DNA of 64,000 nt from Torymus aiolomorphi (taxonomy: Eukaryota; Arthropoda; Insecta; Hymenoptera; Torymidae): NCBI GenBank assembly GCA_036365515.1, contig CM070874.1, forward strand, positions 161,201,297 through 161,265,296, given 5' to 3'. Both the position numbers and the translations under genes were made by a program. Under the pieces are notes generated by a model. The model ran no database searches. It was not told where the DNA came from and saw only the letters and a list, made by a program, of their open reading frames with translations. Shown one piece after another: positions 17,446 through 50,303 of the stretch; within the stretch, counting starts at the first letter, position 1; each line of letters starts with the position of its first letter.

Positions 17446-17866
17446 TGAAAAATAAATTCAAAAGAAACATTGACGGAACCTATTTTCTTCGTAGATATAT
17501 TTTTAATGATTACATTATCAAAATTAGTATTTCTGAAATTCGAACGCTACTAATTTACATTATTTACATAAAACAAAAAAATAAAAGGAAGTTTTAGTTT
17601 TATTTACAATTAAAATAAGAAATAATGCTTTATTGAATTGAATACCTTTAATGTTTTAACGATTATTTTATTTTAAAATTTAAAATTAAAAAAGTGTGAC
17701 AAACGAAGTAGTTATGGCAATTACAGTTAGCTAATTAAAGTTACCGTAATTTTCCAACGTTTTTCCTTTTTAGGTGCGACTGTATACGGGCGAGCCTTAT
17801 AATTATTAATATTTTTGACACCATTTTACTATTTAAATTTAATAGTAATTAATAGCTGGCTCTGAA

Positions 17867-18932
17867 ATGGCTGACTATCCGCCCAACGATATCGTTGATA
17901 TGATTTTGGTTTTAGGAGCAAGCCAAAATAATTATCGTGGTGCGGCAAGACTTTATGCTGAACGCTATCCTGACAGACGACATCCTGACGATAGAGCTAT
18001 CAGACGTTTAACTCAAAGAGCTCGTGGTGGACACATGGTTCGCCAACGTAGGCGCCATGAGTATGATGAAAATGATAATCGAGTTGTAACTATCCTTGCA
18101 ATAATTCATCTTGACCCACACATTAGCGCTCGTCGAGTCGAAAGGGAAATTGGTATTCCAAGAAATACTTTTTTAAGAATTATGAAGGTACTTCAACATC
18201 ACGCGTATCATATTACTTTGGTTCAAGAGCTACAGTTTCAGCATTTCCAACAGCGTATTGTGTTTTGCCAATGGGCTTTACAAATGATAGAAAATGATCC
18301 AGACTTTTTTTTAACTTTGTTCTTTTTTCTGATGAGGCACAATTTCAAAGTGATGGGGAACTGAATAGGCATAATTGCCATTATTGGTCTGATGTGAATC
18401 CTCATTGGGTCAGAACTGTAAACCATCAAAGACGTTGGAGTATTATGCTATGGTGCGGGATTATCAATGGATATTTGATTGGCCCTTATTTTTTTGAAGC
18501 AAATGTAAATCAACATACCTATTTGACGCTAATAAGAGATGAACTACCTGGATTGATGGAAGATGTTGATTTAGAAACGCGACGAAGAATGTGGCTCCAG
18601 CAGGACGGCGCAGCACCACATTTCGCTCGAATTGTAAGGGCTTTTTTGAATGAGCACTATGGTAACAGATGGATTGATCGAGAAGGTCCGGTTAACTGGT
18701 CTGCTTGCTCACCCGATCTTACATCACCAGATTTCTATTTATGGGGGTATTTAAAAAATGCTGTTTTTGAGCAACAACCCTCTACAGAGCAGATATGCAG
18801 GATAGGATTCGTCGAGCATGCGCTGCCATTCCGAGACAAACTTTGCAGAACACAGTTCGCCATTTTCAAAGGCGTTTGACTATGTACCTTGAAGCAAATG
18901 GTCGTCATTTCAAACACTTGCTTCCAGGTTAA
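17867..18932 (+). pseudogene. Mariner-like transposase, DUF4817 N-terminus, two frameshifts
   Basis: It opens at ATG 17867 with a helix-turn-helix of the DUF4817 type (YRGAARLYAERYPDRRHPD). The DDE_3 catalytic core follows: first Asp in SDEAQFQ, second in QQDGAAPHF, third acidic position in SPDLTSPDFYLWG. The coding line is broken by an extra T in a T-run near 18325 and by a missing A near 18787, judged against the inverted fragment at 17105-17445. The terminal stop is at about 18930. A 39-bp minisatellite starts right after it. It could not make active transposase. Confidence 0.8.
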
Positions 18933-25962: not shown

Positions 25963-26639
25963 GGGGGCTAGACACATTTTTCCTCTGAAATAAGAAGTCA
26001 CATTTTAATACATAAATGTAAACTAATTATTTCATACTTTTTACATATAAAAGTGGGTATATTTACCTTACCTTAAAACTTTCTCCGATGGGCCTTTTAT
26101 ATGATCCAGAACCATAGTCATCGATGAAACAAGTTTTTTCACTAACCGTAAGCTTTGAAATTTTCCTGTGGATGGATTGACCCCAGATTTGAACTAAATT
26201 ACTCCTGAATAGTATAATTCTCATATGAGTGTAGGGATTTTTGATCTAATGAGAAAAAAAAATTGTGCTGTTTTTCAAGAGTTTTTTTTTTTATTTTTTT
26301 AAATTATTTATATTTTTTCATAATTTTTTAGATGTAAAAATTTTTTCCGACATTTAATCCTAAATCCCTACACTTATATGAGAATTATACTATTCAGGAG
26401 TAATTTAGTTTAAATCTGGAGTCAATCCATCCACAGAAAAATTTCAAAGCTTACGGTTAGTGAAAAAACTTGTTTCATCGATGACTATGGTTCTGGACCA
26501 TATAAAAGGCCCATCGGAGAAAGTTTTAAGGTAAGGTAAATATACCCACTTTTATATGTAAAAAGTATGAAATAATTAGTTTACATTTATGTATTAAAAT
26601 GTGACTTCTTATTTCAGAGAAAAAAGGTGTCTAGCCCCC
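25963..26639. mobile_element. Foldback MITE flanked by TTAA
   Basis: Two nearly identical inverted arms of about 275 bp (25963-26240 and 26365-26639) begin and end GGGGGCTAGACAC and leave a T/A-rich centre. TTAA stands on both sides (25959-25962 and 26640-26643), as for piggyBac-type insertions. Beyond it the flanks are also inverted to each other (about 25790-25945 and 26690-26870), so it may lie inside an older palindrome. No ORF. Confidence 0.75.
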
Positions 26640-26937
26640 TTAAATAGATAAAGGTTCACCCAATCAGAAATTAAAAATAATCCATAAAGCATTTACCTTA
26701 TCATGTCCAGTTCTACTTCTTGCGGTTAATCGATGTCATGAAGAAAAGATAAATGCTATATTTCCCAATATGGGGACTAACTAATCCATAAAGCATTTAC
26801 CTTATCAAGTTCACTTCTAGGTTAAGCCCGATACGGTGACAAATTATCAAAGCACCTCTCCAAAGGTGCGGCACCTGAGCCCTCGTGCGTAGGGCTGCTC
26901 CGAATTGGTAGGCACCTATCAGTGCCGAGAGGTGGCG

Positions 26938-26985
26938 CACAGTGGGCTAAAACCCGATTTTTTTTTTCAAAATAAAATAACTCCA
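26938..26985 (+). repeat. Left transposon end with RSS-like heptamer
   Basis: CACAGTG (26938-26944) equals the consensus heptamer of V(D)J recombination signals. A 23-bp stretch ending in a T-run follows, then an A-rich block CAAAATAAAATAAC from 26968. The block only partly resembles the consensus nonamer. Confidence 0.8.
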
Positions 26986-29285
26986 CACAGAAACCACCGA
27001 TTTGGATGATTTTTGTTTCTACTTATAGCAAATTAAATGTAGATTAGAGGAAAAATAAAGAAAATTGTTAAATAAATTTTTATAACCTCCAAATTCAACA
27101 AGAAACATAGGTATTTTTCTAAATTTTGTAGAAAACCGTATTTAAGTTTTAGAAAAATGATCCTTTTTGGGATAAATGTTGCCTCCTCTGTACATCCATG
27201 CATAATATATAACCTCTATACCTGTGAACCATAACCTAACAACTTGAAGATGAATACTTCGGCGCAAAGTCAGGTTAATACGATAATCTGTAATGCACTA
27301 TAACTTTGTAAAGTATTTATGACAAAATAAGTGATCTGTAACATTACAAACTTTTAATGACCATAACCTAAACCTTTTTAGAGATTAGCTTATTATTTTG
27401 ATTTAGAAAAAAAGTAATTCCACACAGAAACCACCGATTCGGATGATTTTTGTTTGTACTTATAGCTAATTAAATGTAGATTAGGGGAAAAGTGAAGAGT
27501 ATTGTCAAATCAATTATTATAACCTCCAAACTCTACAAGAAACATAGGTATTTTTCAAAATTTTGTAGGAAACCGTATTTAAGTTTCAGAAAAATGTTTC
27601 TTTTTGGGAAAAATGTTGCCTCCTGAGTTCATCCATGTATAATATATAACCCCTACACCTGTGAACCATAACCTAAACACCTTGCAGATGAATACTTCGC
27701 CACAAAGTCAGGTTAATACGATAATCTGTAATGAACTATGACTTTGTAAGGTATTTATGACAAAATAAGTGATCTGCAACATTAAAAACTTATAATGACC
27801 ATAACCTAAACCATTTTACAAATTAGCTTATTATTTTTATTTAGAAAAAAAGTAATTCCACACAGAAACCACCAATTCGGATGATTTTTGTTTGTACTTA
27901 TAGCTAATTGAATGTAGATTAGGGGAAAAATAAAGAGTATTGTCAAATCAATTATTATAACCTCCAAACTCTACAAGAAACATAGGTATTATTCAAAATT
28001 TTATAGGAAACCGTATTTAAGTTTTAGAAAAATGATTCTTTTTTGAATAAATGTTGCCCCCTGAGTTCCTCCATGTATAATATATAACCCCTACACCTTT
28101 GAACCATAACCTAACAACTACGTTGAATACTTCGCCGCAAAGACATGTTAATATGATAATCTATAATGCACTATGACTTTGTGAGGTAGTTATGAAAAAT
28201 TAAGTGATCTGTAATATTAAAAACTTTTAATGATCATATCCTAATATTTTGTACCGATTAGCTTATTATTTCGATTTAGAAAAAAAGTTATTCCAGACAG
28301 GAACCACTGATTCGGATGATTTTTGTTTGTACTTACAGCTAATTGAATGTAGATTAGGGGAAAAATAAAGAGTATTGTCAAATCAATTATTATAACCTCC
28401 AAACTCTACAAGAAACATACGTATTTATCAAAATTTTGTAGGAAACCGTATTTAAGTTTTAGAAAAATGATTCATTTTGGGAATAATGTTGCCTCCTGCG
28501 TTCATCTATGTATAATATATAACCTCTACACCTAAGAAACATAACCTAACAGCTCTACGTGGAATACTTCGCCGCAAAGACATGTTAATATGATAATCTG
28601 TCATGCACTATGACTTTGTGAGGTAGTTATGAAAAATTAAGTGATCTGTAATATTAAAAACTTTTAATGATCATATCCTAATATTTTGTACCGATTAGCT
28701 TATTATTTCGATTTAGAAAAAAAGTTATTCCAGACAGGAACCACTGATTCGGATGATTTTTGTTTGTACTTACAGCTAATTGAATGTGGATTAGGGGAAA
28801 AATAAAGAGCATTGTCAAATTAATTATTATAACCTCCAAACTCTACAAGAAACATACGTATTTATTAAAATTTGGTAAGAAACCGTATTTAAGTTTTAGA
28901 AAAATGATTCTTTTTAGGAATAATGTTGCATCCTGCGTTCATCTATGTATAATATATAATCTCTACACCTATGAAACATAACCTAACAACTTGAAGATGA
29001 ATACTTCGCCGCATAGTGAGGTTAATACGATAATCTGTAATGCACTATAACTTTGTTAGGTAGTTATGACAAAATAAGTGATCTGTAACATTAAAAAGTA
29101 TTAATGACCATAACCTATAACTTTTTACAGATTAGCTTATCATTTTGATTTAGAAAAAAAGTAATTCCACACATAAACCACCGATTCGGATGATTTTTTT
29201 TTTACTTATAGCTAATTGAATGTAGATTAGAGGAAAAATAAAGACTATTGTCAAATCAATTATTATAACCTCCAAGCTCTATATA
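26938..29285. repeat. Left terminal array, about 437-bp units, 5.3 copies
   Basis: Unit landmarks (tccacacag/tccagacag) lie at 26982, 27419, 27858, 28292, 28729 and 29166, giving periods of 434-439 bp. Each unit holds tcggatgatttttgttt and cgaagtatt-type segments. The outermost unit carries the transposon tip. Confidence 0.9.
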
Positions 29286-29813
29286 GTAGATATTGAGTTC
29301 TCTCCTATTATATGTCAAAGTTAACGGCCTGTATCGTATAACCTTTTTTACTTTTGTTCAAAGTCAGACCAATCTGAACGCTAAATATCTCCGATAATAT
29401 ATCCAAACTATATACCTTCAAAATCTTAATACACAAACAGGTAAACTTTACATCTTCAATCTTCTTCAATCTTCTTCATCTTCAGCTTGGAACTTCAGGT
29501 CAAGCTTAAAGTTAATTAGCTCATAACCATTAAAGTTACTCAAAAAGTAAATACTTAAATCTCAATGCCTTATGGCTTCAATTCATTTATATACCATTGG
29601 GCTAAGATTGATATACTTTTTAAATTTATACATTATATTTTTTTTAGAGACCACTGGTATTGTTATAACATGAAGTATTCTATGCCATTCGGATAATGCG
29701 ATGGAGTAAATGCTATCATTCTTTTTATATGAGTGTATCTTGAAAATGTTTATAATTAGTAAATATTTGAACTCATAAGTATGTAAAAAATATATGATAA
29801 TGTGTACCAAACA

Positions 29814-29819
29814 TTTATT
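29814..29819 (-). terminator. Polyadenylation signal of the transposase
   Basis: AATAAA on the minus strand, 7 bp after the stop codon of exon 7. Confidence 0.6.
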
Positions 29820-29825
29820 TAATTT

Positions 29826-29946
29826 TTAGCTAGATACACTTTCGTCACTTTCACTGTCTTCAGTTCCCACATCTTCATCTCGACCACTTTCATTTCCTTC
29901 GTCTTCAGGTTCACTCGTTTCAGTTTCTTTATCTTCCACATTTACT
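29826..29946 (-). CDS. Transposase exon 7 (acidic tail)
   Basis: Acceptor TTATTCCAG. It encodes 39 residues, nearly half Glu or Asp (EDKETETSEPEDEG and on to SESDESVSS), then TAA at 29826-29828. Acidic C-termini occur in Transib and RAG proteins. An AATAAA polyadenylation signal follows within 15 bp. Confidence 0.75.
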
Positions 29947-30183
29947 CTGGAATAAAGTCTCATATTAAAAATTTTCGTCGAAATAAAAATTACTTTGTAC
30001 TTTATGTGCCTTTGTAACTATGTTGTGATTTATTTTCCATTTTTGTATACGATAATAAAATTAAATGTCAAGTGCCTATATTGAATAAGCCCAACTCATT
30101 TTTTTAAATGTAGGTATAGGTATTTAGCAGTATATAGTTTTTTCAAGCGCATATATAAATGTTATCAATATATTTATAATTAC

Positions 30184-30748
30184 CCTGGTGGAAATCAATT
30201 CCATTATTTGCATAATCATAGCTAGTTTCACCAACAATCGTAAAAATTATACACTTTTCTTGACCATTTCTATTCATCAATGAAACAATTTTTCCGCTCA
30301 TGTTCACCATTTAATAGGCAGAATATCAGAATAAGTTTTTCACAAATTTACATTAACTTATGAATGAGTATTTTAAAGATGTCAAATTTGGCCAGTTTTT
30401 TTAGTTAGAATATAACTAGTAAGAGGCTATAGCTATTTTTTAATATTTGGTTTTAAATACATAATTAAATTATAGAGAAAAGGACCACCCATCAACCTTA
30501 TTGATTTTGGTTCCCGGCCAATTCCTCTGAAAATTTAGTATTTTTGTACTGTTTGACCTTCCGATCAAATGTGTCAATAGGATCTAGATCTGCAAATCAA
30601 TACATAATGGTTGTGGGGGTTGGTCCTTTTTAGTAAAAACATTTTGAGGTTACCTTGTCTCCGTTAAATAGATAATTGGACCAGAAAAATCGTTTCATGA
30701 TTACCCAGAACTTTCCGGCTATTTTTTATAGAGAAAATTTCCACCAGG
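30184..30748. mobile_element. Possible short-TIR element in intron 6
   Basis: CCTGGTGGAAAT at about 30184 and its inverse ATTTCCACCAGG to 30748 bracket about 565 bp of non-coding DNA inside the last intron. No clear target duplication. Confidence 0.3.
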
Positions 30749-31017
30749 CTTTTTTGTAGTATGAGTAAATTTACCCAATTTTTGGCATAATAAAATAACA
30801 AAATAAATGAAGGGATTTACTATTACATAAATATAGACTGTTCCCTCATTAACTTCCCAGCAACAAAAACAAAAAAAAATGAATTACCTTCTCTCGAGAA
30901 TAATATAAACGAATTAATTCCTTTCTTGTAGAATTTACTTTTTAGTACTTATTATCATTCAGTCTCGAATAAAGCTACGTTAATTTTATATTTACTCAAT
31001 GATATCTTTTTACTTAC

Positions 31018-31606
31018 ACTTCGTTTATGTACTCTAACATATCCAAAGTAATCTTGTTTTTCTTTCGTCTTTGTATTTTGTTCTTAATTGTAATTAAGGA
31101 AATTTTTGGGTCACTCATATATATAGATCGGTTAAATACATCTAAAATACGGTTTTTTCTGCTGTTCTGTCTAGCATGCAAAACCATATTTCTTCTATAG
31201 TACTTGTGGGCTGCTTCAAGGGCATCTTCCGCATAATAAGCTATAGGTAAAGGGAAGCGACTCGATATCTCACAGCCATGCCTAAGAAATTTGTGCATTG
31301 TTGGGTTCATGCGAGCCCAGGGGTATAAACTATAATGCATATCATATGTTTCCCAACAAAACTTCTGTGTTTTTTTAAACTTTAATTCTTTTTTGCACTG
31401 AAATAACTGCAATAATAAAGCAATATTGGCTACAAATAGTTTATCTAATCCTAAAGATTGTGCAAATTTGTGTGGATTGCTAAAACATTTTCGTGCTAAA
31501 TTTCCAGTGTTTGTGGTACCGTGTCCTTGTAAAACTTGGTCTACTCTTACTCCAAATTGAGCGAAAAGTATTTTTTGTACAGCAGTTTTTTGTTCATTGT
31601 ATTTTT
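31018..31606 (-). CDS. Transposase exon 6 (zinc-binding His pair, catalytic Glu)
   Basis: Acceptor GTTTTCAG and donor AACGAAGT|GTAAGT. Residues 383-578 include THTGN-like TTNTGNLARKCFSNP, LYPWARMNPTMHKFLRHG with H487 and H492 five apart as in RAG1, and AEDALEAAHKYYRR with the likely catalytic Glu. Read through without splicing it would stop at 31014. The phase with exon 7 and the perfect GTAAGT donor favour splicing. Confidence 0.88.
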
Positions 31607-32289
31607 CTGAAAACGTAGTTATAATTTAACATGAAGTATGAAATACTAATCATTTTTTTCAATCAGGAAGAGTAATAGATTACATTGAAATTTTTATGAA
31701 CTAGAGACTCGAGACGCAGATTGCACGTTCTTGTTGTTATATTTTCTCAATTTTTACTTTTGAGGTTAGGAATTCATGCATATGTAGAGATCGCGCACAA
31801 AAACGAACAGCCACCCAGAGGGTCTGAGTTAGATCTCTTATTCGTTGGCCGAACGATTAATAAGAGAATGAATATAGAAGGATTACCATCTCTTTTTTAA
31901 AGTACGATTTATGAAATTACTACTTTTAATAGATACAGTTATTTTGGAGAGAGAAAAAATAGCAGCTTGTAAATTGCTTATGTAACAATTTTTGTTTAAT
32001 TTTATTAAACATATGTTATAATGTAGGTGGATGTTTAATATTAAGCCAAAATTTTGTTTTAATCTATTTTTATTTTCACTATACTCTCTCTTTACGTATT
32101 CAATTACAAATTTAATATTAAAATTTGAGTCTATATTTATAGAGGTTGTAGGAGCAAGCATACCAAGCTGTATTTCTCATTATTTATTTAAAAAATAGTT
32201 CATATCATCAAAGATAATATTGATAATAATATATTTTTATATAGGAAATCATTAAACTCAGAACATTAGTTAATCCAAGAATCACACAA

Positions 32290-33280
32290 TTTTTTAAATC
32301 GAAATCTGAGGTGGTCTACGAAAGAAAGGAAGGCACGCAGTCGTACAATCGTAAGCGAGACGATTATTTAAAAAGTTTCTATACTCAAATAGTCGGAGAA
32401 CGTAAGGTCAACGTAGAAGAACAAGGTACACTGACGTGAAATACTAAGCAAGTTGATTATTAGAAAGTCTTAAACCCAAATAGCAGGAAGAAGTGATTTC
32501 CACGCACAATTATTTTAAAAAGTCTCAAATCCAAATAGCTGGAGGCACTAATGTAAGTTTACGTTACAAAGGGAGTTACATAGACATTCGACAGTTAGCG
32601 AATCAATTATAATTCTTATACCCAAATAGCCATAAGACGCGAGACTCACGTAGAAGAGGAAGGCACGCAGACGTGCGACTGTCTGAGAGACGATTATTTA
32701 AAAAATCTTTATACCAAAATACTCAGAGGACGCAAGGTCCACGTGAAATTGGAGTTACGCAGACGTGCGACATGACAGTAAGCGAATCAATCATTTAAAA
32801 AAGTCTCAAACCCAAATAGGAAGGGGACGTGAGGTCTACAAAAAAATGTGAGTTTTTGCAGATGCGCGACAGTAAGGGAGTTTATTTAAAAAAGTCTCGA
32901 ACCCAAATAGCAGGAGGAGGCGTGATCCACGCAAAAAAGGAAGTTACACGTACTGTAATTCGTACTGCGACAGTAAGTGAGGCGATTATTTCAGAAGTGT
33001 CAAATATAAATGGCCATGGGCGCGATGTCTATGTAAAAAAGAGAATTACATAGACGTGCAACAGTAAGCAAGTCAATTATTTCAAAAATTCAACCCAAAT
33101 AGCAAAGAGACGCAAGGTCAACACAAAATAAAAGGGCGTTATGCATACGTGCAGCAATAAGTGAGTCAGTCATTCAACAAAGTCACAAACCCAATTAATC
33201 GGAGAACGCAAGGTCTACGAAAAAATATAAGCTGGTCAATTATTTTGAAAAGGTTTTAAACCTTTGAAAAGGTTTTAAAC
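32290..33280. repeat. Minisatellite in transposase intron 5
   Basis: About nine degenerate units of roughly 95-110 bp marked by aaacccaaatagcaggagg, ggtccacg and cagacgtgcgacagtaag. Wording and order resemble the core units at 20400-21310, which suggests one dispersed satellite family. Confidence 0.65.
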
Positions 33281-33443
33281 CAAGTAACTGTAATGAGTTA
33301 CTTTTTTTAAGTAACTTCTCGAACACTTCAACGTATTTAGTTTATACGATCAAATTCAATTTTCAAAGTTACAAAAGGTAGAAAATATCAATCAATCCTC
33401 ATAGCCCCAACATCCCCTTAATTTAAAATATTAACTAACGTAC

Positions 33444-33883
33444 CTTTCCGTGGTTCAGTAACATCCCACTCTTTGATTGTTAATCTATAAGCCTAATGCA
33501 AAAGATGTTCAAATGTTTTGATTTCAACATGTAATAATCCTAATCCATACTGCAAATTTTCCTCTTTAGGAGTGAATGGATCTTGTAGCTTAAACTTGTA
33601 CGTGGTTCGTAAACACATAGGATATTTGCAAGTCGCCCTATTCCCTGTGATTGTATTTACACATTTTCCATCAAACATGGTTTTAGACACTTGAAACTTT
33701 ACGGTCACTTTTTTATTATTTAACATCTGAAACTTGTGGGTGGTAAGCGAATTTATCTCATTAGTTAAACGCTGAAATTTCCGAATAGTTGCTGTTTCAT
33801 CTTCTTTTTCAAGGGCGATTCGCAACGGTCGACAAAACCGAACACTTTGTGGTGTGGGATTAATCCAGCTATATTCTTCAGCA
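33444..33883 (-). CDS. Transposase exon 5 (second catalytic Asp, internal TAG)
   Basis: Acceptor TATCAAG and donor CGGAAAG|GTACGT. It encodes SWINPTPQSVRFCRPLRI, MFDGKCVN (D307), CKYPMC and YGLGLLHVEIKTFEHLLH. Codon 366 is TAG at 33493-33495 where relatives have Leu or Ser; the frame continues AYRLTIKEW to the donor. CKYPMC has Tyr where the usual CxxC zinc pair has its first Cys, a possible second lesion. Confidence 0.88.
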
Positions 33884-34602
33884 CTTGATATAAGAATATA
33901 TTAATTTAATATTTTACTGTATTATATGTCCAATATGTAATGTTAAAATATTTTTTGATTCAGTGTGCGTAAACTATCAATTTTTTGCTCCTTAAATTAA
34001 ATATCGTTCGGTAAATTTACTATTAAAATCTTCATAGAAATAAATAATACTTTACATTTTGTTAAATATTTATCACCCACATGCTTTGGGGTGCAGGTGT
34101 TTAGATTCAAAGCTGAGCTTGCCTATGTATAAAGTTCTGTATTTTATATAGTTGATTTTATCACGTAAGGGCAAAAAGCTTTAGCCACAGAGGTCTTTAT
34201 CAATTTAAGTATTACTTTAAAGTATAAAGAAACAGTAAAAGTAACACTTGACTTCAGTGTTATAATTTTAATTTTAAGTGTGTACTCTTAACTGATGAGT
34301 ATCATCTCCAAAATTTGAGTGTATACTCTTTATAATTGAGCGTGTATACCCAAATTTGAGTGTATAATCCTTACAGTCGAACTTCCACACTCAAATTTGG
34401 ATGTAAACCCCCAAAAAGTGATTTTTTTTCCGTAAGATACCTTATAGACAGATAAGCCTCTGAGCTGTGAATTCTTATACGCATAGTTTTTATACAAGTA
34501 TGTCAAATCAAGCCAGGTTTTATAATTTTAATCTGATCTACAGATTACAAAAACAAAAATAGGAAATTCATTTTAGTTTTGTTGTTTAAAAATTAATGTT
34601 AC

Positions 34603-34887
34603 CTTAACTTAATCAATAAGATACTTGTTACAAACAAAGTTTGTTGAGCAAGCAGGCTGTCATTTTCAGGATTTTCACACCTTTGGTGCGAATTCATGTG
34701 TCCAGACGAGCTATCAAAACCTGATGTAAGCAGCAAGGTGACATCATTTAAGGCTTCTGGTCTCCAATCAGTAGCTACAGTTTCACATAACCTTTCTACG
34801 GTTTTGTTGAGCATGATTTGCAGAGGTACTCTAACTTCCACTTCTGTCGCATAAACTCGTGTAGGTAAACATTCAACCATTTCACTT
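34603..34887 (-). CDS. Transposase exon 4 (first catalytic Asp)
   Basis: Acceptor CAATTAG and donor TTAAG|GTAACA. It contains TLLLTSGFDSSSGH with D199 of the DDE triad, and ends TLFVTSILLIKL, a segment conserved in Transib and RAG1-like proteins. Confidence 0.88.
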
Positions 34888-35068
34888 CTAATTGGAAAAA
34901 CAATATTACTTTATTTTACACGTTAAATAATTAGTTTGAATGGAAATTGATTATCGTTACGCAAACTAACACAAAAATAGCACTATTACCCTATTGGTCT
35001 TGAATTTTAAACAAACTTTCACCTAACGTTTGTCAAAAAATTTAAAGTAACGTTCATTATTTCGTCGG

Positions 35069-35390
35069 CTGGGAGGAAAAAGGTGCCATCTCGTTATTTT
35101 GCCAAGAAAAGTGTCAACTCGTTATTTAGGTAAGAAAAGTGCCATCTCGTTATTTTGCTAAGAAAAGTGCCAATTTCGCTAAGAAAACTACCAACTCAGC
35201 GGAGCACTTTTCTTAGTGTAATAAAGAGTTAGCACTTTTCCTAACGAAATAACGAGATGGCACTTATCTTACCGAAATAACGTGTTGGCACTTTTCTTAG
35301 CAAAATAAGGAGCTGACACTTTTCTTCCCGAAATAACGAGTTAGCATTTTTCTTGGCAAAATAACGAGATGGCACTATTTTCCTCCCAGC
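35069..35390. mobile_element. Foldback MITE with 33-bp repeats in intron 3
   Basis: The ends GCTGGGAGGAAAA and TTTTCCTCCCAGC enclose inverted arrays of about 33-bp units (gccatctcgttattttgc, aagaaaagtg). The turn is near 35205. It lies wholly within the intron between exons 4 and 3. Confidence 0.7.
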
Positions 35391-35763
35391 GGGCGATTTA
35401 TACTCATATAGCTTTACTTTCAAAACGAGAAAGCTTTTAAACTCTTGCGCATTATATTTACAATGTAATTGAAACTTAATTATACTTTAACATTGAAATA
35501 TTTCAACATTTTTGTAACCTTTTTTACTGTCACAAAGCTTTTTGTATAAAAAAAGTCATTAATACATCGCAATTTTCAAATAATATTCACTATACTGTTC
35601 AGTAAAATAAAGTAGCAAATTCAGCTCCACGAATTATTATATTGAATACAATATATCATGGAATTATAAATTTTTCATGGAATATATCATGGAATTTCAA
35701 ATTCTACAATATATCATGGAATTATAAATTTTTCTATCGAAATATAAAAAAAAAAATTATTAC

Positions 35764-35890
35764 CTAATTAACTCATAACGTGGATAGATCTTGGATTTCT
35801 TTGAATGAGTATCGGTTACTAAAGCTTTATACCGATTCTTGCTATAGTCATTTTCCATATAGAAAGCTAAGGCTGATTCATTCGAGTGCC
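35764..35890 (-). CDS. Transposase exon 3 (Transib signature)
   Basis: Acceptor CATCAG and donor TTAG|GTAATA. It encodes SALAFYMENDYSKNRYKAL and IYPRYELI, matching the conserved block before the first catalytic Asp in Transib proteins (ALAF..D.S..QY...IYP.Y). Confidence 0.85.
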
Positions 35891-36389
35891 CTGATGAAAA
35901 ATGTAATTAGAATTTATCAATCATTTCAAAATGGAGTAAGAAGGTTCTATTAGCAAACATTCACTATTCGAAATTAGTGCTCTTATTTCTTGTTTTATTG
36001 CTATATGCATACTTCTTAACTAAAGTGGCATCAATTAACGTACAGTAAACATATTACTTTATCTAATAATTAATAAAAATTCTTCAACAAAAGATAATTT
36101 GGTTAATTTTTTGAGATTACATATATTATTTTTGTTTCAATGTATTTTTAATAATTTAGAGGTAGTGAAAAATAATTATAAAAGCCAATTATTTTTTATT
36201 ATAATTTCATTTCAAAGCACAAACATTCTCAACAGATTCTAAATTGTGATTGCCGATGGATATGAAGTCGCGAATTTAGTAAGAACTTATATTAGTTAAA
36301 GAAAAACTAAAACTTTGATTTTAGAGTAGGATTATTTTATTAATTGCCTTAATTTTTTTGATTAAGGTTCTTTTTTCTATAGGACTTAC

Positions 36390-36560
36390 TTAGTTCATCA
36401 TCAGTTTGGGTTTGATCTTCATAAGCAATGTGATTGTTTTCATCAATACTTTGTCTCTTTGATTTTAGAGTCAGTTTCAGAGCTAATTCTAGTAAATTTA
36501 TATCATGATTTGCGAATTCAGCAACTTCATGGGCTCTTCTATAAATTGTGCTTTGACATC
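36390..36560 (-). CDS. Transposase exon 2
   Basis: Acceptor TTATTAG and donor CTAA|GTAAGT. It encodes about 57 residues (STIYRRAHEVAEFANHDINL and on) with helical and then acidic content. No motif known to me. It joins exon 3 in phase (A + GG). Confidence 0.7.
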
Positions 36561-36617
36561 CTAATAACAAAGCGTCAAACGTTTGTTTCGGTAGTATATG
36601 TATATATATATATATAT

Positions 36618-37694
36618 TGTAACGGGATGGCTAGTGGAGGAAAATCCCAACAAGCCACAGGCCAGCGATGCCCTAGAACATGGTGCCGCGGGTGTCAGAC
36701 TAAAATGACTTACCCGGGGATCTGCTCCTGGAATCCCGAAAACAACGCGAAGATCGCACATGAACTTCGCTTTCCAACTAATTGGATCGCTGAGTGAAAA
36801 GCGCGCGCTCGAAGAGTAAAGCGCGCGGCCGCTATGCTCAGATATGAAAACGACCGGCGGAGTCGTTTTCCCGCGGAGGCGGCGGTATCCGGGAGAAGGA
36901 CAGGTTGTAATGAACAACGCGACGAGTAACTAGATATCACAGTATATTTACAATCACTAATCTCTACAAGCACAACGCACGTGCTGATTAGAACAATGAG
37001 TTAGTTCGCACGCGACCGTTAATATTCAAACGCGCGAACTATACGGCGCGCGGCGAAGCTGCTAATTTCGCGCGCGGTGTTAAAGTACGGCGGGCTGACA
37101 CACACCCCCACGTACACGGCACAGAAGGCTTGCACGGGGCGATTTCCGTGCGAGCCTTTACAATGAACCCGCGAGAGGAGAGTAGAAAACTTACGAAGGA
37201 GCAGCCGGTGCACTCGACTCTCTCTCTCGCTCCCTGTCGTTCGCACAGCAGTTGCGCTCTCTCTCTCTCTCTCTTGCTCGCTGTATTGGGTCGGCAGGCG
37301 GGCTGGCTGCCGGCTCCTCGCTCGCAGTCTCGTTCTGCTCGTGGCACACGCTACGCGGTATCGCTCTCTCTCTGTCTCTCTTGTGTGCGCCTCCACTATT
37401 TGCGGCGCCTCCACTACCCTCGCGGGGTCTCACAAAAAAAACGATAGGACGGAGCGGACAAGTAAACTCACGAAGACACGGAGGAGATCCTACTTGCGCG
37501 ACGGCAGACACGAAGATGGCTCCCTTTTCTCGCGGGAACAGGTTAGCAGCTTCGCGACGGATGACGGGCATTTTACGCGTCGCGAGACCGATTCGCTACG
37601 CGCGGCGCGCCTCGATTCGGCTGCGCAGGAGTTGCGCGCGCGCGCTCACTACCTTCGCGCGGTAGATTAGAATCGCGGCTAGACACGCGTTACA
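36618..37694. mobile_element. Probable solo LTR in intron 1, GC-rich
   Basis: 1077 bp beginning TGTAACG and ending CGTTACA, inserted in a (TA)n run, with ATAT on both sides. Its base composition is far richer in GC than the neighbourhood and it contains (CT)n runs near 37216-37280. TG...CA ends and lack of coding favour a solo LTR. Overlapping open frames here come from the GC bias and are not genes. Confidence 0.55.
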
Positions 37695-37699
37695 ATATA

Positions 37700-37758
37700 T
37701 ATATATATATATTGAACAAAAGAAATAAAAGGGCTTTTCTGAGCGGATACCCTTTCTC

Positions 37759-37795
<37 letters not shown>

Positions 37796-38019
37796 GCTAG
37801 TAAGTTTGAGGAGCTCAACCCCGGTCGGTCAGAGTGGCTAAAGAAATAATAACCCTCAGGTTACCGACTCTAGACAAATAGACTCTAGAAAACCCCTCAA
37901 ACTTCCGCTCGGATGCTGAATATATAGATTGGAAGTTTGAGGAGGCTCCTCAAACTTCCCATAACCCCTCAAACTTCCAAGCGGGTGCTGAATATAATCC
38001 TCAAACTTCCAGAATTTCA

Positions 38020-38072
<53 letters not shown>
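37700..38072. repeat. (TA)n-bracketed repeat, second copy
   Basis: TA runs at about 37762-37792 and about 38020-38072 flank a segment with aaagaaataataaccctcag, which is the inverse of a segment at about 545-575. It also has repeated cctcaaacttcc motifs. Confidence 0.55.
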
Positions 38073-38076
<4 letters not shown>

Positions 38077-38127
38077 TTGCAGGACATTGCAATTATTGGT
38101 TTCATTTATGATGACATTATTTTTTAC

Positions 38128-38251
38128 CGGGATCAGAATCCGTTGTCACTATTCGTTTTCTTCCTCCGTTAAAACTGCTACGAGTTTTCTTTTTCGGCCG
38201 ACCTCTTTGAATATTTTCACTTTTTCTCTTTTTTGTTTTGGGTTTGAACAT
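38128..38251 (-). CDS. Transposase exon 1 (AT-hook)
   Basis: It begins at ATG 38251 and encodes a strongly basic 41-residue N-terminus with the AT-hook core GRPKKK, which may also serve as a nuclear signal. The donor is CCCG|GTAAAA. The first codon of exon 2 is completed in phase (G + GA). It lies beyond a 1567-bp intron that holds a solo LTR, so this join is the least certain. Confidence 0.65.
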
Positions 38252-38553
38252 GCTATAGTTAAATGCATATTTTTATTTTAAATGATATATTATTTACTGT
38301 AGAAGGTGAGAGGGAGGGGTGATACAACAATTGAAGGAAAATCCATTTTAAAAAGTGTATATATATTGATGTTAACCAAACTTTGCTATTTATAAAGATC
38401 GGGTTTTGCTACAATATCAATCAAAAATAATTATGAAACACTATTTTATTTACGAAAACATTAATTTCTTACACGTATGACATCGGATAATATAAAATCG
38501 GATAATTATCGAATAATAAAAATTAATTCTTGATTCTTCCTAGGTGTACGATA

Positions 38554-38873
38554 CCCGGTCAAAAATATCCAGCTAGGAAATTCAGATGGATTCCCTAGCT
38601 GGATCCAGATAGATTTCCTAGCTGGATCGGGTGGATTCACGTAGATTTCAATGGATTTTTTAGCTGGATTTCTACTCTGGTCCATGTTGCGTAGATTTCC
38701 TACTTAATTTTTACTGAAAATGGGTAAGAAATCCACGCAACATGGATAAGAGTAGGAATCCAGCTAAAAAATCCATCGAAATCTACATGAATCCACCCGA
38801 TCCTGCTAGGAAATCCACCTGGAATCCAGCTGGAAATCCATCTGGATTTCCTAGCTGGATATTTTTGACCGGT
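38554..38873. mobile_element. Foldback MITE with TA flanks
   Basis: 320 bp. The ends CCCGGTCAAAAATATCC and GGATATTTTTGACCGGT are inverse, each next to TA. The arms of about 150 bp are made of repeated TCCAGCTAGGAAATCCA-type motifs. It lies inside the Transib element upstream of the transposase. Confidence 0.75.
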
Positions 38874-38879
38874 TACTAC

Positions 38880-40885
38880 TAGCCCTAAAGTAATATGCCA
38901 CTTTACAAAAATAAATAATAACTAAATATAATCCTCAGAAGTATTATTTGACATATTTATATTTTGTATATAGCATTTGCTTCTAAAAATAAAAAAAATT
39001 ATCTTCTTAATTATATAAAAAATATTTTTGAGAGTATTTATATAACAACAATCGAATAACTAAAATAAAGATGCAACCCTTTTTTAAAACTTGCCGTTGA
39101 TTAATTTTAAACACCTCGGTAATTGTTGAATACATCCACGCATTAAGGAGGGTGTTTCGCAAAATCCAACCAAATATTTTCAAATAAAATTTAAATACGT
39201 GATAAATAATGATTATTCCAATCTCTTTGCATAATTTTAATGTACCTTGATGAAGAATAAATTGAGCACGACATTAATAAAAATTGAGTTTTCAGGTTAC
39301 ATTGCTACATAGCCTTGTGGGATAGCACGATTTTTGTATGCTTGCATAATTTTTATACTTCCAGCCTATTTTAGCCAATAAGAAAACGCATATGTATTCA
39401 AGCAACCACCAGAAAAATGAAACAATGAAAAATATATGGGCCAACGAACGACCAGAAAAAAGAATCAATGAAAAAATATTTGGCCAAGTTATTTAATATT
39501 AGTCACGAAAATTTAGATAAAATGCGTGACATACTGATTTTAAATTTCATAAAATTTGTGAATTGATTGTGTAAGCAAATTTTATATATTTTTTACCTAT
39601 AAAATCTATTGTTTCATTATTAATTTTGACTATAGATTACTTTGCAAGCAATAATATTAATATTATGGGCTAAAAATATTGGAGGCCCAAGGAAGTACTC
39701 GTTAAATATGCTCCTTAGCGAAATACCCCCCTTAAGATATACGTTATATGACATTTTACCTGCACTGGCATCTTTGACCCTGTACTCTACATTATTTGCA
39801 TCACCTATTTATTTATGATTTAATTATTATTCTATAACATATTCAAATAATTAACCCATAATGTAATTCGAATCAGGCTAAAACAATAGTCACAAAATTA
39901 TACTAAACTAAAGTATTTTCTTTTTTCTTCGTGTTTTGAAAATCTGTGCATTTGGCTGTTGTTGATGCGGTTGCTGTGATATGATTATACCTATTTAACA
40001 TCATTGTTTATACGGTTGCTATGCTATAATTTGATTATTTATTATACTGCAGATAATAAGATACTTATATATTATAGGTATAGTTAATAATTATATTCCA
40101 AATTGATAGTATAATTTTTAAATTTTATATTTTACAGAATATTGCTTTATTTCTGTAAGACAACATAAATGCTAATTTCGACTCGAATTAGTATATATAC
40201 ATACTTGTCTTATCTTATAATTTAGATAAAATTATATTTAATAACTCATTAAGAAATTTATAAAGTAATAAAGAAATTCTACGCTTATTTATGCTTATTA
40301 GTTAACCGAGTATTAATTTTTTCGAACCGAATTTGCAAAAATTATATATAAAAATTTAATGTTAATATAATTTACGGCTTAAGTATTTCATTAGGGTGTA
40401 CATTAGAACTTTTCCTTTAAATGATAACAATACAAACCAGGAACACTGGACAGTCTAAAATTTGTATTAAGCAATCCGATACATGTAGTTAAAAATACTT
40501 ACCTCAGATAACCGATGCAATGTATAGTACAAACGAAAAATAAACGTTCATTTATTTATTCTCTTATTGTATTATAAATGTTATTAAATGTATACCTAAC
40601 TGTATATAAACAAAAGAGAAAAAATCGAGTCGAGTTACCTGGGGTAACAAATATAAAAAATCAAAGCCTGTGGATGATTTAGCTTCAAGCCAAGCTAGCC
40701 TATTGAGTTTAAAGCTTTATTCTATTTATATAAAAGAGTTTTGAGGCTATCGGATATTTTTCTTTCAACCTGGTATTTCAATCTATAAGGTTCATAAGAT
40801 TACAGATTATTTCGATTCAAGCTCTGCCTGTCCATTGTATGAGTAATTTCAAATTATAAGATAATTCAATTTAAGCTTTTTTTTT
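38880..40885. other. Transposon interior, no gene seen
   Basis: Two kb of very AT-rich DNA upstream of the transposase start. No reading frame of note. The promoter should lie at its left edge, but I cannot point to a convincing TATA/initiator pair. Confidence 0.4.
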
Positions 40886-41066
40886 GCTTCCTCCTAGAGG
40901 AAGCTTTGTGATAGTGATTTTTTGAGTTGTTGTAAAAACATGTTATAATTGTTTTCTGAGGTGTATTGGCGCCCAAATATAATATGTTTGAATTTTCAAG
41001 AATGAATTCTTGAGTTTAAGTATTCAAAACTGACGAATAATTAAAATAATATAAGAAAAATTTCTT
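40886..41066 (+). mobile_element. Hairpin-ended element, copy B, internally deleted
   Basis: It starts with the same GCTTCCTCCTAGAGGAAGC hairpin and ends with the same tattcaaaactga-type segment as copy A. The (GT)n and about 600 bp of interior are missing. Confidence 0.65.
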
Positions 41067-41069
41067 TTT

Positions 41070-42295
41070 TTTCATTTATCCAACTTCCATTATTATCGTA
41101 AAATTTGAAGACAAAAATTTTCATCGCAAACTTCGCTTGGCTGCTCTGAGAGAGACACAAATGCAGGTATAGTAGAGCGTCTACAACCTGCTACCCAGCC
41201 TCAGGATTTCGATTTTTGGTCGAGCAAAAATAGACAAAACATCACTAGAGCGGTACGGGGCCTTGATAAGCTTACGTCCGTCGCACCCAACTGTTTTTCC
41301 TTCTAAAGAATCTCTCTGATTGGGCTAAAACTCTCGTCTTGTATCTATCGCACCGAGATAGAGTTAGAGAATCAGGCCCCGAGAGGTGGTTCCGAAACCA
41401 AAAACCAGACGCTGGGTGGCACGTTGTAGACGTACTCTCTCTACACATAGCAGGCCTTTGAGGCCCGCATGGCAGTTTGAGGCCGTGTGCTATCATTCAA
41501 CAGCTGACGGTTTCTAGACTCTGGTTAAATTTCCATTCTAGTTCCTCTATAGTTGTAGATACTTACATCATGCACTGACAGAAAAACAAAAATATGAAAA
41601 ATTTGTATGTTGTCTGGTAAACTGACAATAACTGACCATGTACTATAAACCCAAAGTTTTAATTTTTCAATAATAAATTTAATTATAATAATGTAATAAA
41701 TTGTTGCAAAAATAATAAATTTTGTTATTGAAAATGAATTAAAGGGATCATCAAATTAATTTTCAGGAAGCTACGGGCCAATGAATTGGCAGCGGTTTTT
41801 CTAATATGAAAGAGCCCGAAGGTTATACTGCATTTAGCTTCACCAAAGATTGTATATATCGAATTGTTTACAAATCACTAATCCAGTGATAATTATATTC
41901 AAAAGATATACTGAATAAAGTATTAACCTGTCATTGCGGCGAAGTATTTTACTTATAGTTGTAAGGTTAAAACTGCAAACCGGATGCCGGAAAAAAAAGA
42001 CTAACATTCTGAAAGGAAAACGGACATAAAAAAATTCAGTTGTCTATATCTTTTAAACAAGATAATCTTATTAAATAAAATCTTTTGATTTGAGTAGAGC
42101 AATGAAATAGCTTTCGATTAAGAGTAATATGTTATATAGTTAAAACTAACGTATTAGGTATATAGGCGCATTGAATTTCTCACACACCAATTTCAATGTA
42201 TATGTAGTACGGGTCGTTCCTTCAGGCTTCTTCTATACTTGCCTTCGGAGCGCGCCCGCGCTCCTTGATGTTCACAGGTCTAATGGTAATACATT
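41070..42295. other. Unassigned interior with repeat fragments
   Basis: 41640-41815 matches one arm of the foldback element at 45950-47255 (ggaagctacgggccaatg). 42150-42275 is the inverse of 61533-61655. 41140-41520 is GC-richer and unidentified; a 74-codon minus frame there has no support. Confidence 0.45.
42150..42275 (-). repeat. Dispersed hairpin-containing repeat of about 125 bp
   Basis: Inverse copy of 61533-61655. Both contain a GGAGCGC/GCGCTCC stem and aagcctgaaggaacgacccg-like wording. No coding. Confidence 0.6.
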
Positions 42296-44309
42296 ATATA
42301 TGGACGAACTCAGAAGTAAACATTTTTACCACTAAGAATCATTTTTCCAAACATAAATACAGTTTTCAACCAAATTTAGAAAAATTTAGAAAAAATGTTT
42401 CTCGTACAGTTTGGAGGTTATAAAAATTGATTTGGCAATACTCTTCATTTTTCCCCTAATCTACATTCAATTAGATGTAAGTACAAACAAAAATCATCCG
42501 AATCGGTGGTTTCTGTCTGGAGTAACTTTTTTTCTAAATCCAAATAATAAGCTAATCGGTAAAAAGTTTTAGGTTATGGTCATTAAAAGGTTTTAATGTT
42601 ACAGATCACTTATTTTGTCATAAATACCTTACAAAGTCATAGTGCATTACAGATTATCGTATTAACCTGACTTTGCGGCGAAGTATTCCACGTAGAGTTG
42701 TTAGGTTATGTTTCTTAGGTGTAGATGTTATATATTATACATAGATGAACGCAGGAGGCAACATTATTCCCAAAATGAATCATTTTTCTAAAACTTAAAT
42801 ACGGTTTCCTACAAAATTTTGATAAATACGTATGTTTCTTGTAGAGTTTGGAGGTTATAATAATTAATTTGACAATACTCTTTATTTTTCCCCTAATCTA
42901 CATTCAATTAGCTGTAAGTAAAAACAAAAATCATCCGAATCGGTGGTTCCTGTCTGGAATAACTTTTTTCTAAATCGAATTAATAAGCTAATCGGTAAAA
43001 AGTATTAGGATATGATCATTAAAAGTTTTTAATATTACAGATCACTTAATTTTTCATAACTACCTCACAAAGTCATAGTGCATGACAGATTATCATATTA
43101 ACATGTCTTTGCGGCGAAGTATTCCACGTAGAGCTGTTAGGTTATGTTTCTTAGGTGTAGAGGTTATATATTATACATAGATGAACGCAGGAGGCAACAT
43201 TATTCCCAAAATGATTCATTTTTCTAAAACTTAAATTCGGTTTCCTACAAAATTTTGATAAATACGTATGTTTCTTGTAGAGTTTGGAGGTTATAATTAT
43301 TGATTTGACAATACTCTTTATTTTTCCCCTAATCTACATTCAATTAGCTGTAAGTAAAAACAAAAATCATCCGAATCGGTGGTTCCTGTCTGGAATAACT
43401 TTTTTCTAAATCGAATTAATAAGCTAATCGGTAAAAAATATTGGGATATGATCATTAAAAGTTTTTAATATTACAGATCACTTAATTTTTCATAACTAAC
43501 TTACAAAGTCATAGTGCATTATAGATTATCATATTAACATGTCTTTGCGGCGAAGTATTCAACGTAGTTGTTAGGTTATGGTACAAAGGTGTAGGGGTTA
43601 TATATTATACATGGAGGAACTCAGGGGGCAACATTTTTTCAAAAAAGAATCATTTTTCTAAAACTTAAATACGGTTTCCTATAAAATTTTGAAAAATACC
43701 TATGTTTATTGTAGAGTTTGGAGGTTATAATAATTGATTTGACAATACTCTTTATTTTTCCCCTAATCTACATTCAATTAGCTATAAGTACAAACAAAAA
43801 TCATCCGAATCGGTGGTTTCTGTGTGGAATTACTTTTTTTCTAAATAAAAACAATAAACTAATTTGTAAAATGGTTTAGGTTATGGTCATTATAAGTTTT
43901 TAATGTTACAGATCACTTATTTTGTCATAAATACCTTACAAAGTCATAGTTCATTACAGATTATCGTATTAACCTGACTTTGCGGCGAAGTATTCATCTG
44001 CAAGGTGTTTAGGTTATGGTTCACAGGTGTAGGGGTTATATATTATACATGGATGAACTCAGGAGGCAACATATTTCCCAAAAAGAAACATTTTTCTGAA
44101 ACTTAAATACGGTTTCCTACAAAATTTTGAAAAATACCTGTGTTTCTTGTTGTATTTGGAGGTTATAAAAATTTATTTAACAATTTTCTTTATTTTTCCT
44201 CTAATCTACATTTAATTTGCTATAAGTAGAAACAAAAATCATCCAAATTGGTGGCTTCTGTGTGGAGTTATTTTATTTTGAAAAAAAAATCGGGTTTTAG
44301 CCCACTGTG
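42296..44309. repeat. Right terminal array, inverted, about 4.6 copies
   Basis: The same 437-bp family in the opposite orientation. Landmarks such as aaaatcatccgaatcggtgg repeat about every 430-440 bp. A degenerate piece also lies at about 41925-41980, so the array once reached further in before a later insertion at about 42000-42290. Confidence 0.9.
44258..44309 (-). repeat. Right transposon end with RSS-like heptamer
   Basis: Read inward on the minus strand it is CACAGTG, 22 bp, then CAAAATAAAATAAC. It is identical to the left end except for one T fewer in the T-run. Confidence 0.8.
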
Positions 44310-44449
44310 TGGCGTATAGGCGCTTCGGTAATAATTAAATGTCAACCTATTACACTGCGATCCCAAAGAACAGTCAGCGAGGCGCAGCGCGGTCAAGCGA
44401 GGGTGCAGAGAACTAAGGGATTGTCCACATAGCGTCTCGTGTGCCTTGT

Positions 44450-44955
44450 CTCTTGTCGCATGTCTCAAGCGCGAAAAAAATCGTTGTCCGATTTCTTATA
44501 CATTTATAGTTTATGGCAACAGAAAACCATACAGAAAAAATGACCATAGATTAGATATAATTAATTATAATTTAAATAACTTGACAACATTAGATTCTGA
44601 ATGTAATAAATGCAAAGGAAAAATACAACAAAAAATTAATGTAAAAGTTGAAGAAAAAAAAATTTTAATTTTACAATTACTGTTATTTACAGTGAATGAA
44701 TCAAACGATATAGTAAAACTGAGTAACTGTAAAATAACAAATATTCCTAACACGTATGTAAATATTGACAACATAATATATAAAGTTTCGAATGCAATAT
44801 TCCATCATGGCAATAGCATTGATGAAGGACATTATACAAATATATTACGAAAAAATAATACATGGATAAGAGTAGATGATTTGAACGTAAAAAAACAAAT
44901 TTGGCCCAAATACAGTAAAGATATATATGTTATTTTTCTAGAAGAAACACGATAA
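44450..44955 (+). CDS. Ubiquitin-specific protease-like (C19) C-terminal fragment
   Basis: The frame has no ATG at its left edge (it opens at TTG 44446) and codes about 165 residues to the stop at 44953-44955. CNKCKGK near residue 56 and the C-terminal GHYTNILRKNNTWIRVDD with DIYVIFLEE match the His box of USP deubiquitinases. The Cys box is absent, so only the second half is here. A splice acceptor (catttatag) at about 44508 could start the exon. USP-like ORFs of this sort are often carried by repeats. It lies just outside the right end of the Transib element. Confidence 0.55.
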
Positions 44956-48589: not shown

Positions 48590-50303
48590 ATGATAAATGA
48601 CATTGAAAATACTAATTATTTTCCTCAACAACACAAAAATTTACTAGTGACAAAAGTAGATATGGGAAACGCCACAGTCGTTCTAGATAAAAATACATAT
48701 ATTGACAGTGTTGAAAAACAACTACAGAATGATAAATATTACAAAGAATTGTCAAAGAACCCCCTCAATAAATTAATTAGAACTACAACAGCATTTGTAA
48801 AGCATTGGTACAATTTAGGCATTTTTCAAGATTATGAATTTGATCTAAACCAACGGAAATTAATAAAACAGATCTTGCAAAATGTTACGGTTTAGTTAAA
48901 GTACACAAGACTGGACATCCTATACGTATTATTGTTTCCGCCGTTAATTCTCCGACATATAATTTATCTAAATTCTTGACAAAATTTTTAAATGATAACA
49001 TTCCAAAAACTAATTCATATGTAAAAAATAGTTTTCATCTCAAAGAAAGGATAGATTCATTTGTTATACCTCCAGGATACACACTAATTAGTTTAGATGT
49101 GGTTAGTTTATTCACTAATACAAGCAAGGAAATTATTATAAAATTAATAGAAGATAATTGGAAATATTTACGCAATAAAATAAATCTTTCTTGTAAAGAG
49201 TTTTGTGAAGGTATTAACATAGTCCTTGACTCCACTTTTTTCCAATTTAATGACAAATTTTATAAACAAACATTCGGATCTGCGATGGGAAGTCCTGTAA
49301 GTCCTGTCTTGTGTGACTTGGCTATGAGACGCTTGGATGAACATTGTCTTAATAAACTAAGTTTTGATGTACCTTTATACTTACGCTATGTAGATGACAT
49401 TCTAATATGTATTCCCATTTGTTTAATCGATGAAACTTTGAAAGTGTTTAATGACTTTGACAGTAACCTACAATTTACAGTGGAAACCACAAATAATAAT
49501 GAAATTAGTTTTCTTGATTTGAAGCTCATAATTCAAGATAATAATTCAATAATTATTAACTGGTATAGGAAACCTACTCATTCTGGTCGTTACTTAAATT
49601 TTAATTCACAGCACCCTTTATCTCAAAAAATCGCAATAGTCTACACATTAGTAGATTACAGTATCAAATTGTCCGACGTTAAATTCCACAGTGAAAATCT
49701 TGAAATATCAAAAAAATTCTTACTAACTAATAATTACCCACATAATTTTATTAATAAATATATAAAAAAAGATTACAAAAAATATACAATTACGCAGCTT
49801 CAAATCAAGTGATTTTCAGTAATAAAAAATTGATAGTTTTACCTTATTTTCAAAAATTTGACTCTATTATTAAGAGAATTTTTCACAAAAATAATATTAA
49901 TGTAATTTTCAAATGCATTGACAAATTCTCGAGATTTATTCAATTGGGAAAAGATCGAATGTGTCACATAGACAAATGTAACATTGTTTATAAAATAAAC
50001 TGTAATAAATGCAAAGCTTGTTACATAGGCCAATCTTCCAGGCATCTCAAAACTAGAGTAAAGGAACATGAAAGCGACTGTAAACATTTTAGAGAGAAAT
50101 CAGCTTTAGTAGAACATATTAATGAAACAACACACACATTTAACTTTGATAAGGTAAAAATACTAGACACAGAAAATAATAAATTCAAGCGATTGTTCTC
50201 TGAAATGCTACATATTCATGTTAATGCGAATAATATTAATAGAATGTTAGACACAAACAATTTAAAATTTTGTTATAAAAATTTCCTTAATAATAATGTT
50301 TAG
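48590..50303 (+). pseudogene. Penelope reverse transcriptase plus GIY-YIG endonuclease, two frameshifts
   Basis: Three frames join into one protein: 48590-48890, 48885-49805 and 49809-50303. RT landmarks are ISLDVVSLFTN, GSAMGSPVSPVLCDL and the active site LRYVDDILIC. The last third has the Penelope-specific CNKCKACYIGQSSRHLKTR GIY-YIG domain with a Cys-rich insertion. Frameshifts lie near 48875-48890 and at about 49805-49812. Penelope RTs are telomerase-related and use the endonuclease for target-primed insertion. The N-terminal region before 48590 is short or lost. Confidence 0.85.

Follow-up and report, generated by a model that had tools for sequence, protein, structure and literature searches.

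A 17.4-kb putative Transib-superfamily transposon with long, modular inverted ends in Torymus aiolomorphi

Termini, inverted ends and transposase gene

We analysed a 64,000-nucleotide stretch of the Torymus aiolomorphi genome (hereafter the window; G000:C2:161201297-161265296 in an assembly of 21 contigs and 1.08 Gb), in which an initial annotation had noted a giant Transib element with inverse ends, TGGCG on both outer sides and a RAG1-like DDE (Asp-Asp-Glu) transposase inside. Transib termini start with a CACWRTG-like heptamer, known Transibs prefer CGNCG targets, and they are usually a few kb long. The termini CACAGTGGGC/GCCCACTGTG were confirmed at 26938 and 44300-44309, their 10-mer is absent elsewhere within the 64-kb window, and TGGCG abuts both of them externally. 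The element sequence begins at 26938 as CACAGTGGGCTAAAACCC, and the inverse of the same sequence closes it at 44309. The heptamer CACAGTG stands at both termini of the window copy; among sibling copies the left heptamer is CACAGTG in 19 of 20 and CACAATG in the other. It is highly probable that 26938-44309 is one complete, singly inserted giant DNA transposon of the Transib superfamily that likely spread by cut-and-paste; its RAG1-like DDE transposase is predicted to cleave at the CACAGTG ends.

The inverted repeats far exceed the 10 bp noted initially. They extend over approximately 2.0-2.3 kb, and the outermost 2,042 bp of both ends are collinear at 91% identity. An alignment of the ends shifted by one tandem unit gave 1,871 bp at 95%, with the shifted stretches at 95-96%. 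Tandem Repeats Finder resolved the left array (26970-29281) into 5.3 copies of a 437-bp unit and the right array (42270-44266) into 4.6 copies of a 436-bp unit. In addition, the number of units at the right end varied from 1 to 8 across 18 copies including the window (the inner partial anchor left out), and this variation is likely the product of unequal recombination. Long inverted repeats made of tandem units in variable number give the ends a Foldback-like structure.

Three open stretches on the minus strand match the HzTransib transposase (PDB 6pqn) collinearly (E = 2e-24, 2.3e-8 and 5.6e-5), and a gene of seven exons, six GT-AG introns with consistent phases and 618 codons was predicted along the splice signals (Table 1). 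The 618-residue conceptual protein of the initial annotation was recovered exactly as these seven predicted minus-strand exons. When joined, the protein aligned with HzTransib over residues 101-574 (474/618 residues, E = 1.2e-60), so that approximately 100 residues precede the aligned region, and D199, D307 and E513 aligned with the catalytic D, D and E of HzTransib. These catalytic residues are given as D126, D225 and E436 in the part of the source that was available (PMC6941560); an offset of 17 between HzTransib residues and the numbering of the PDB 6pqn chain is our own interpretation.

Table 1. Positions of the element and its parts in the window
Feature	Position	Strand	Basis
Complete Transib-superfamily element (probable), 17,372 bp	26938..44309		termini, TGGCG, sibling copies, empty sites
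Left target-site duplication TGGCG	26933..26937		single in 7/9 empty paralogs, variant in 2
Right target-site duplication TGGCG	44310..44314		directly outside right terminus
Left terminal inverted repeat, about 5 tandem 437-bp units	26938..29281	+	self-alignment, Tandem Repeats Finder
Right terminal inverted repeat, four complete 437-bp units and one partial	42270..44309	-	self-alignment, Tandem Repeats Finder
Transposase exon 7, acidic C-terminus, predicted	29827..29946	-	splice sites and phase
Transposase exon 6, aligned catalytic Glu E513	31018..31606	-	HzTransib alignment, 40 genomic copies scored among 85 candidates
Transposase exon 5, aligned second catalytic Asp D307, in-frame stop 33493-33495	33444..33883	-	HzTransib alignment, gene model
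Segment missing in shortest sibling, holds exon 4 and 28-bp tandem array 35079-35376	34457..35608		sibling alignment
Transposase exon 4, aligned first catalytic Asp D199	34603..34887	-	HzTransib alignment, gene model
Transposase exon 3, predicted	35764..35890	-	gene model
Transposase exon 2, predicted	36390..36560	-	gene model
Nested solo long terminal repeat (TGTAACG...CGTTACA), approximate bounds, intron 1, missing in shortest sibling	36618..37694		sibling alignment, long terminal repeat search
Predicted transposase exon 1, holding the start codon and a basic N-terminus with GRP	38128..38251	-	gene model
About 4 kb without recognised gene, upstream of transposase gene	38252..42269		open reading frame scans, sibling comparison

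Sibling copies, size and empty target sites

Only the best candidates were scored in our genome searches, so all copy counts are lower bounds. With the left 483 bp as query, at least 40 copies including the window were found at 98-100% (best 40 of 329 first-look candidates), and exon 6 likewise gave at least 40 copies, all at 97-100% (best 40 of 85 candidates). A middle piece of the element was also used as query (40 scored of 296 candidates). The exon-5 peptide returned at least 55 near-full copies at ≥95% identity (150 scored of 525 candidates), 48 of them free of stops. The remaining exon-5 matches (of at least 152), nearly a hundred, show divergence or incomplete coverage, mostly with 40-76% identity, and many of them keep open frames of 150-430 residues; judged from such matches, the genome seems to harbour many Transib lineages. 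One relative was inspected for gigantism, and clear element ends were not seen around its diverged Transib open reading frame in C3:140777600-140787500, which lies near a separate inverted repeat with arms 97% complementary over 711 nt.

Left ends were paired by hand with middle pieces in 21 copies besides the window, the right side was taken for 20 of them (C1:101378346 left out), and right ends were identified only from the fetched stretches. The pairing of the two ends was borne out in other copies: 17 of the 20 siblings yielded a right end, at total lengths of 14,718 to 29,185 bp. Perfect 5-bp duplications flank 12 of these 17; all are GC-rich and most fit CGNCG (CGCCG and CGGCG three times each, CGTCG twice, and AGGCG, GGGCG, CGACG and TGGCG once each). 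Furthermore, short copies of approximately 3.3-3.8 kb, identified by their paired inverted ends, carry perfect GC-rich duplications in 5/5 cases.

The size of 17.4 kb was only partly upheld. The giant element is real, but it includes a nested solo long terminal repeat of approximately 1.1 kb and further sequence. In the shortest sibling (14,718 bp), the blocks that align with the window copy are collinear at 97.5-98.7% identity, and two stretches of the window, 34457-35608 and 36612-38018 (2,559 bp together), have no counterpart; 31475-31711, at the beginning of exon 6, is missing as well. The long terminal repeat belongs to a family with 2,801 first-look candidates, in which same-strand pairs lie approximately 6-12 kb apart. 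Exon 4 was not found in the 14,718-bp sibling, so at least part of the 34457-35608 difference is a deletion there. The nested repeat and the sequence missing from the sibling therefore put the element proper at approximately 15-16 kb. The repeat and the missing segments are what an ordinary few-kb Transib, giant in the window only through nested insertions, would lead one to see, but we consider that explanation very unlikely: the shortest of the 17 two-ended siblings still measures 14,718 bp although exon 4 and some of exon 6 are gone from it, and the 2-kb piece at 40200-42200, upstream of the gene and adjoining the right array, is shared without large gaps by 15/17 siblings at 97.8-99.1% identity to the window (the other two are internally gapped). 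Gigantism by nesting alone was rejected on the ground of a shortest sibling of 14.7 kb.

No cargo gene was recognised when 17 small open reading frames of the element were compared with Pfam (E up to 1) and one more was compared at E up to 0.1, none reaching the curated cut-off. No kelch or PHD match that would point to a RAG2-like gene occurred in those 18 frames, although small spliced exons could still escape. A cluster of diverged repeats of approximately 30-97 nt occupies 32318-33233 in intron 5, a region that aligns in the shortest sibling too.

An empty TGGCG site was found among paralogs of the window target. When the window flanks were joined with one TGGCG and searched in the genome, three matches ran across the junction over bases 1-600 or 3-600 at ≥94-95% (40 scored of 503 candidates). 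All nine best paralogs of the window target (9/9) are continuous across the junction and free of the element, and seven of them have TGGCG there, the other two TGGGG and CGGCG. In addition, a comparison of flanks among the fetched stretches yielded one empty site: a sibling of 16,446 bp with the duplication CGTCG (C3:31170835-31187280) has an inverted target paralog approximately 2 kb downstream, 93% over 657 bp and unbroken at the junction. These empty sites are paralogs and not an insertion-free allele. The flanks are uninterrupted in them, which implies that the whole unit was inserted in one step, in agreement with the single mobilised unit proposed initially. The window target itself (26638-26937 plus 44315-44614) is a host repeat, represented by 503 first-look candidates, and many of its matches have inverted partial copies next to them.

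The same data bear on whether an unrelated Transib gene came to lie between two Foldback-like inverted-repeat elements, by chance or recombination. The 3.3-3.8 kb paired-end copies with perfect duplications of their own and the five siblings with unmatched flanks speak for such an arrangement, but left end, exon and middle piece are found in the same order across the genome and the window flanks rejoin at one 5-mer in the empty paralogs, which contradicts it for the window copy; we regard it as even less probable than an element enlarged by nesting. A chance facing of two repeats, in particular, was rejected on the strength of the empty sites. The 40 scored left ends, the 17 sibling end pairs and the empty sites together argue that the unit is no accident and that both ends belong to one family. 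Spread mainly through segmental duplication or satellite-like amplification rather than transposition is the least credible alternative of all. In its favour, the number of 437-bp units varies and several copies cluster on contig C3 near 49-50 Mb; against it, short flanks vary between copies, most copies have their own GC-rich 5-bp duplication and two copies have paralogous empty sites.

Transposase phylogeny and evidence against the reading

A profile built from 13 sequences (12 relatives and the window protein) matched HzTransib at 3e-148, whereas the best RAG1 match was 2.6e-12 and RAG1L gave 1.3e-9. With a profile of the 12 closer relatives, without the window protein, the best RAG1 match was only 1.6e-5, and no RAG1 label occurred among the 45 proteins from a second profile search. 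The Pfam RAG1 family (PF12940) matches 3/13 members of the alignment. In the Transib superfamily, a C(2)C motif sits between the second D and the E, according to the available part of PMC12730594. Most of the 13 aligned sequences have this cysteine pair, as does the one sibling that was read.

Database searches gave 42 matches, of which 14 carried species names, 13 from insects and one from a protist (Pompholyxophrys). The best species-named relatives are from Brassicogethes aeneus (50% identity) and Trichogramma kaykai (44%). A tree of 19 rows sets ten rows that include HzTransib apart from a nine-row clade, supported at 100/100, in which the window protein is joined by one protein without a species name and seven proteins of named insects. 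The tree was rooted at the midpoint for drawing only, and RAG1 and RAG1L were not among the rows. At the level of sequence, membership of the window element in the Transib superfamily is supported, and the separate clade upholds the proposal of an under-described Transib lineage. The suggestion that the element is useful for understanding how RAG arose was borne out in part: the clade apart from HzTransib widens the Transib sampling for reconstructing RAG origins, but its relevance is indirect, as no RAG2-like gene was recognised and RAG1 lies outside the tree.

Several observations weigh against a complete Transib-superfamily element spread by cut-and-paste. For the transposase, the seven-exon structure is a prediction from splice signals, and the window protein on its own matched no Pfam family. 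Only the second cysteine of the C(2)C pair is aligned in it, the first not being at the aligned place. Its frame contains a single in-frame stop, at residue 366, so that the window copy would need enzyme from its siblings; the RAG1-like DDE transposase annotated inside the element thus holds in homology and in the aligned D, D and E, but the frame of this copy is broken. Exon 5 is interrupted by a stop in 7/55 copies, the window included, and exon 6 in 3/11 other copies. Purifying selection since the spread was not detectable in exon 6 of these 11 other copies, which differ from the majority base by 25 nonsynonymous and 3 synonymous changes. At the level of the ends, no right end was found in the fetched stretch for three of the 20 siblings (C2:141984718, C2:96330210 and C5:50624417), and the flanking 5-mers do not match in five of the 17 with both ends (C1:213251929, C5:105727760, C3:169903638, C3:49659990 and C3:50124443). 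Such unmatched flanks could arise when the long inverted ends recombine ectopically.

Known systems, possible mechanism and surroundings

The transposase of HzTransib (Helicoverpa zea, 6pqn) can be aligned with that of the window, with D, D and E in place, but it belongs to another clade and its element is small, whereas here we find a predicted seven-exon gene, an element of 15-29 kb and modular inverted ends of approximately 2 kb. Drosophila Transib1, of the same superfamily, measures 3,030 bp according to the available part of PMC12230796, compared with 14.7-29.2 kb here. Transibs and the RAG recombinase are considered to be related, and the RAGL/TransibSU/ProtoRAG elements likewise combine a RAG1-like enzyme, CAC-type ends and 5-bp target-site duplications, as far as the accessible portions of PMC4411706 and PMC7204232 go. 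These elements differ in having a RAG2-like gene, none being recognised here, and our profile is far closer to HzTransib than to RAG1 or RAG1L. The consulted part of PMC4411706 also states that a genome typically holds an autonomous Transib once or, at most, a few times, compared with the dozens of copies found here, counted irrespective of autonomy.

Outside the superfamily, Galileo of Drosophila, a Foldback-like element, is similar in its long inverted repeats, some with internal tandem repeats, and in its copies consisting of terminal inverted repeats only, as described in the part of PMC4168063 that was available. However, Galileo has a P-superfamily transposase, whereas the enzyme here is of the Transib/RAG1 and not of the P type. 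The piggyBac-derived composite Teratorn has a virus as its fusion partner. Like the window element it is a giant DNA transposon, but it reaches approximately 180 kb and is fused with another mobile element (PMC10175614, available in part), whereas no viral gene was recognised here. Among top-ranked titles and abstract openings, with closed-access papers and Repbase outside the scope, no giant or Foldback-like Transib was found.

By analogy with HzTransib and RAG, transposition would proceed through a nick, a flank hairpin, blunt signal ends and strand transfer with a 5-bp stagger into a GC-rich target. More speculatively, the 437-bp units might act as repeated transposase-binding sites that help to pair ends 15-29 kb apart, and the short inverted-end copies might be mobilised in trans. 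We advance only tentatively, as a rather doubtful possibility, a novel Transib lineage with Foldback-style modular ends, in which arrays of 437-bp binding units let a RAG1-type enzyme pair ends at such distances and so ease the usual limits on size and copy number. If this were true, the family would offer a natural test bed for RAG1-like pairing of distant ends and for Transib copy-number limits, and a natural counterpart of the long-range signal pairing by RAG in V(D)J recombination. It would also allow a test of whether long inverted ends provoke inversions, as in Galileo.

Other sequences in the window lie outside the element. Just to its right, an open stretch at 44335-44952 matches ubiquitin carboxyl-terminal hydrolase (PF00443, 1e-6). 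To its left, an open stretch at 9996-10478 encodes a chromodomain (PF00385, 2.8e-9) and is perhaps part of a retroelement, and 17849-18876 shows a DUF4817 helix-turn-helix (1.4e-7) with a weak DDE_3 match, possibly a mariner-like remnant. Finally, sub-cut-off matches to reverse transcriptase (1.9e-6) and endonuclease (4.5e-4) at 48844-49809 and 55417-56148 possibly belong to a decayed element without long terminal repeats.

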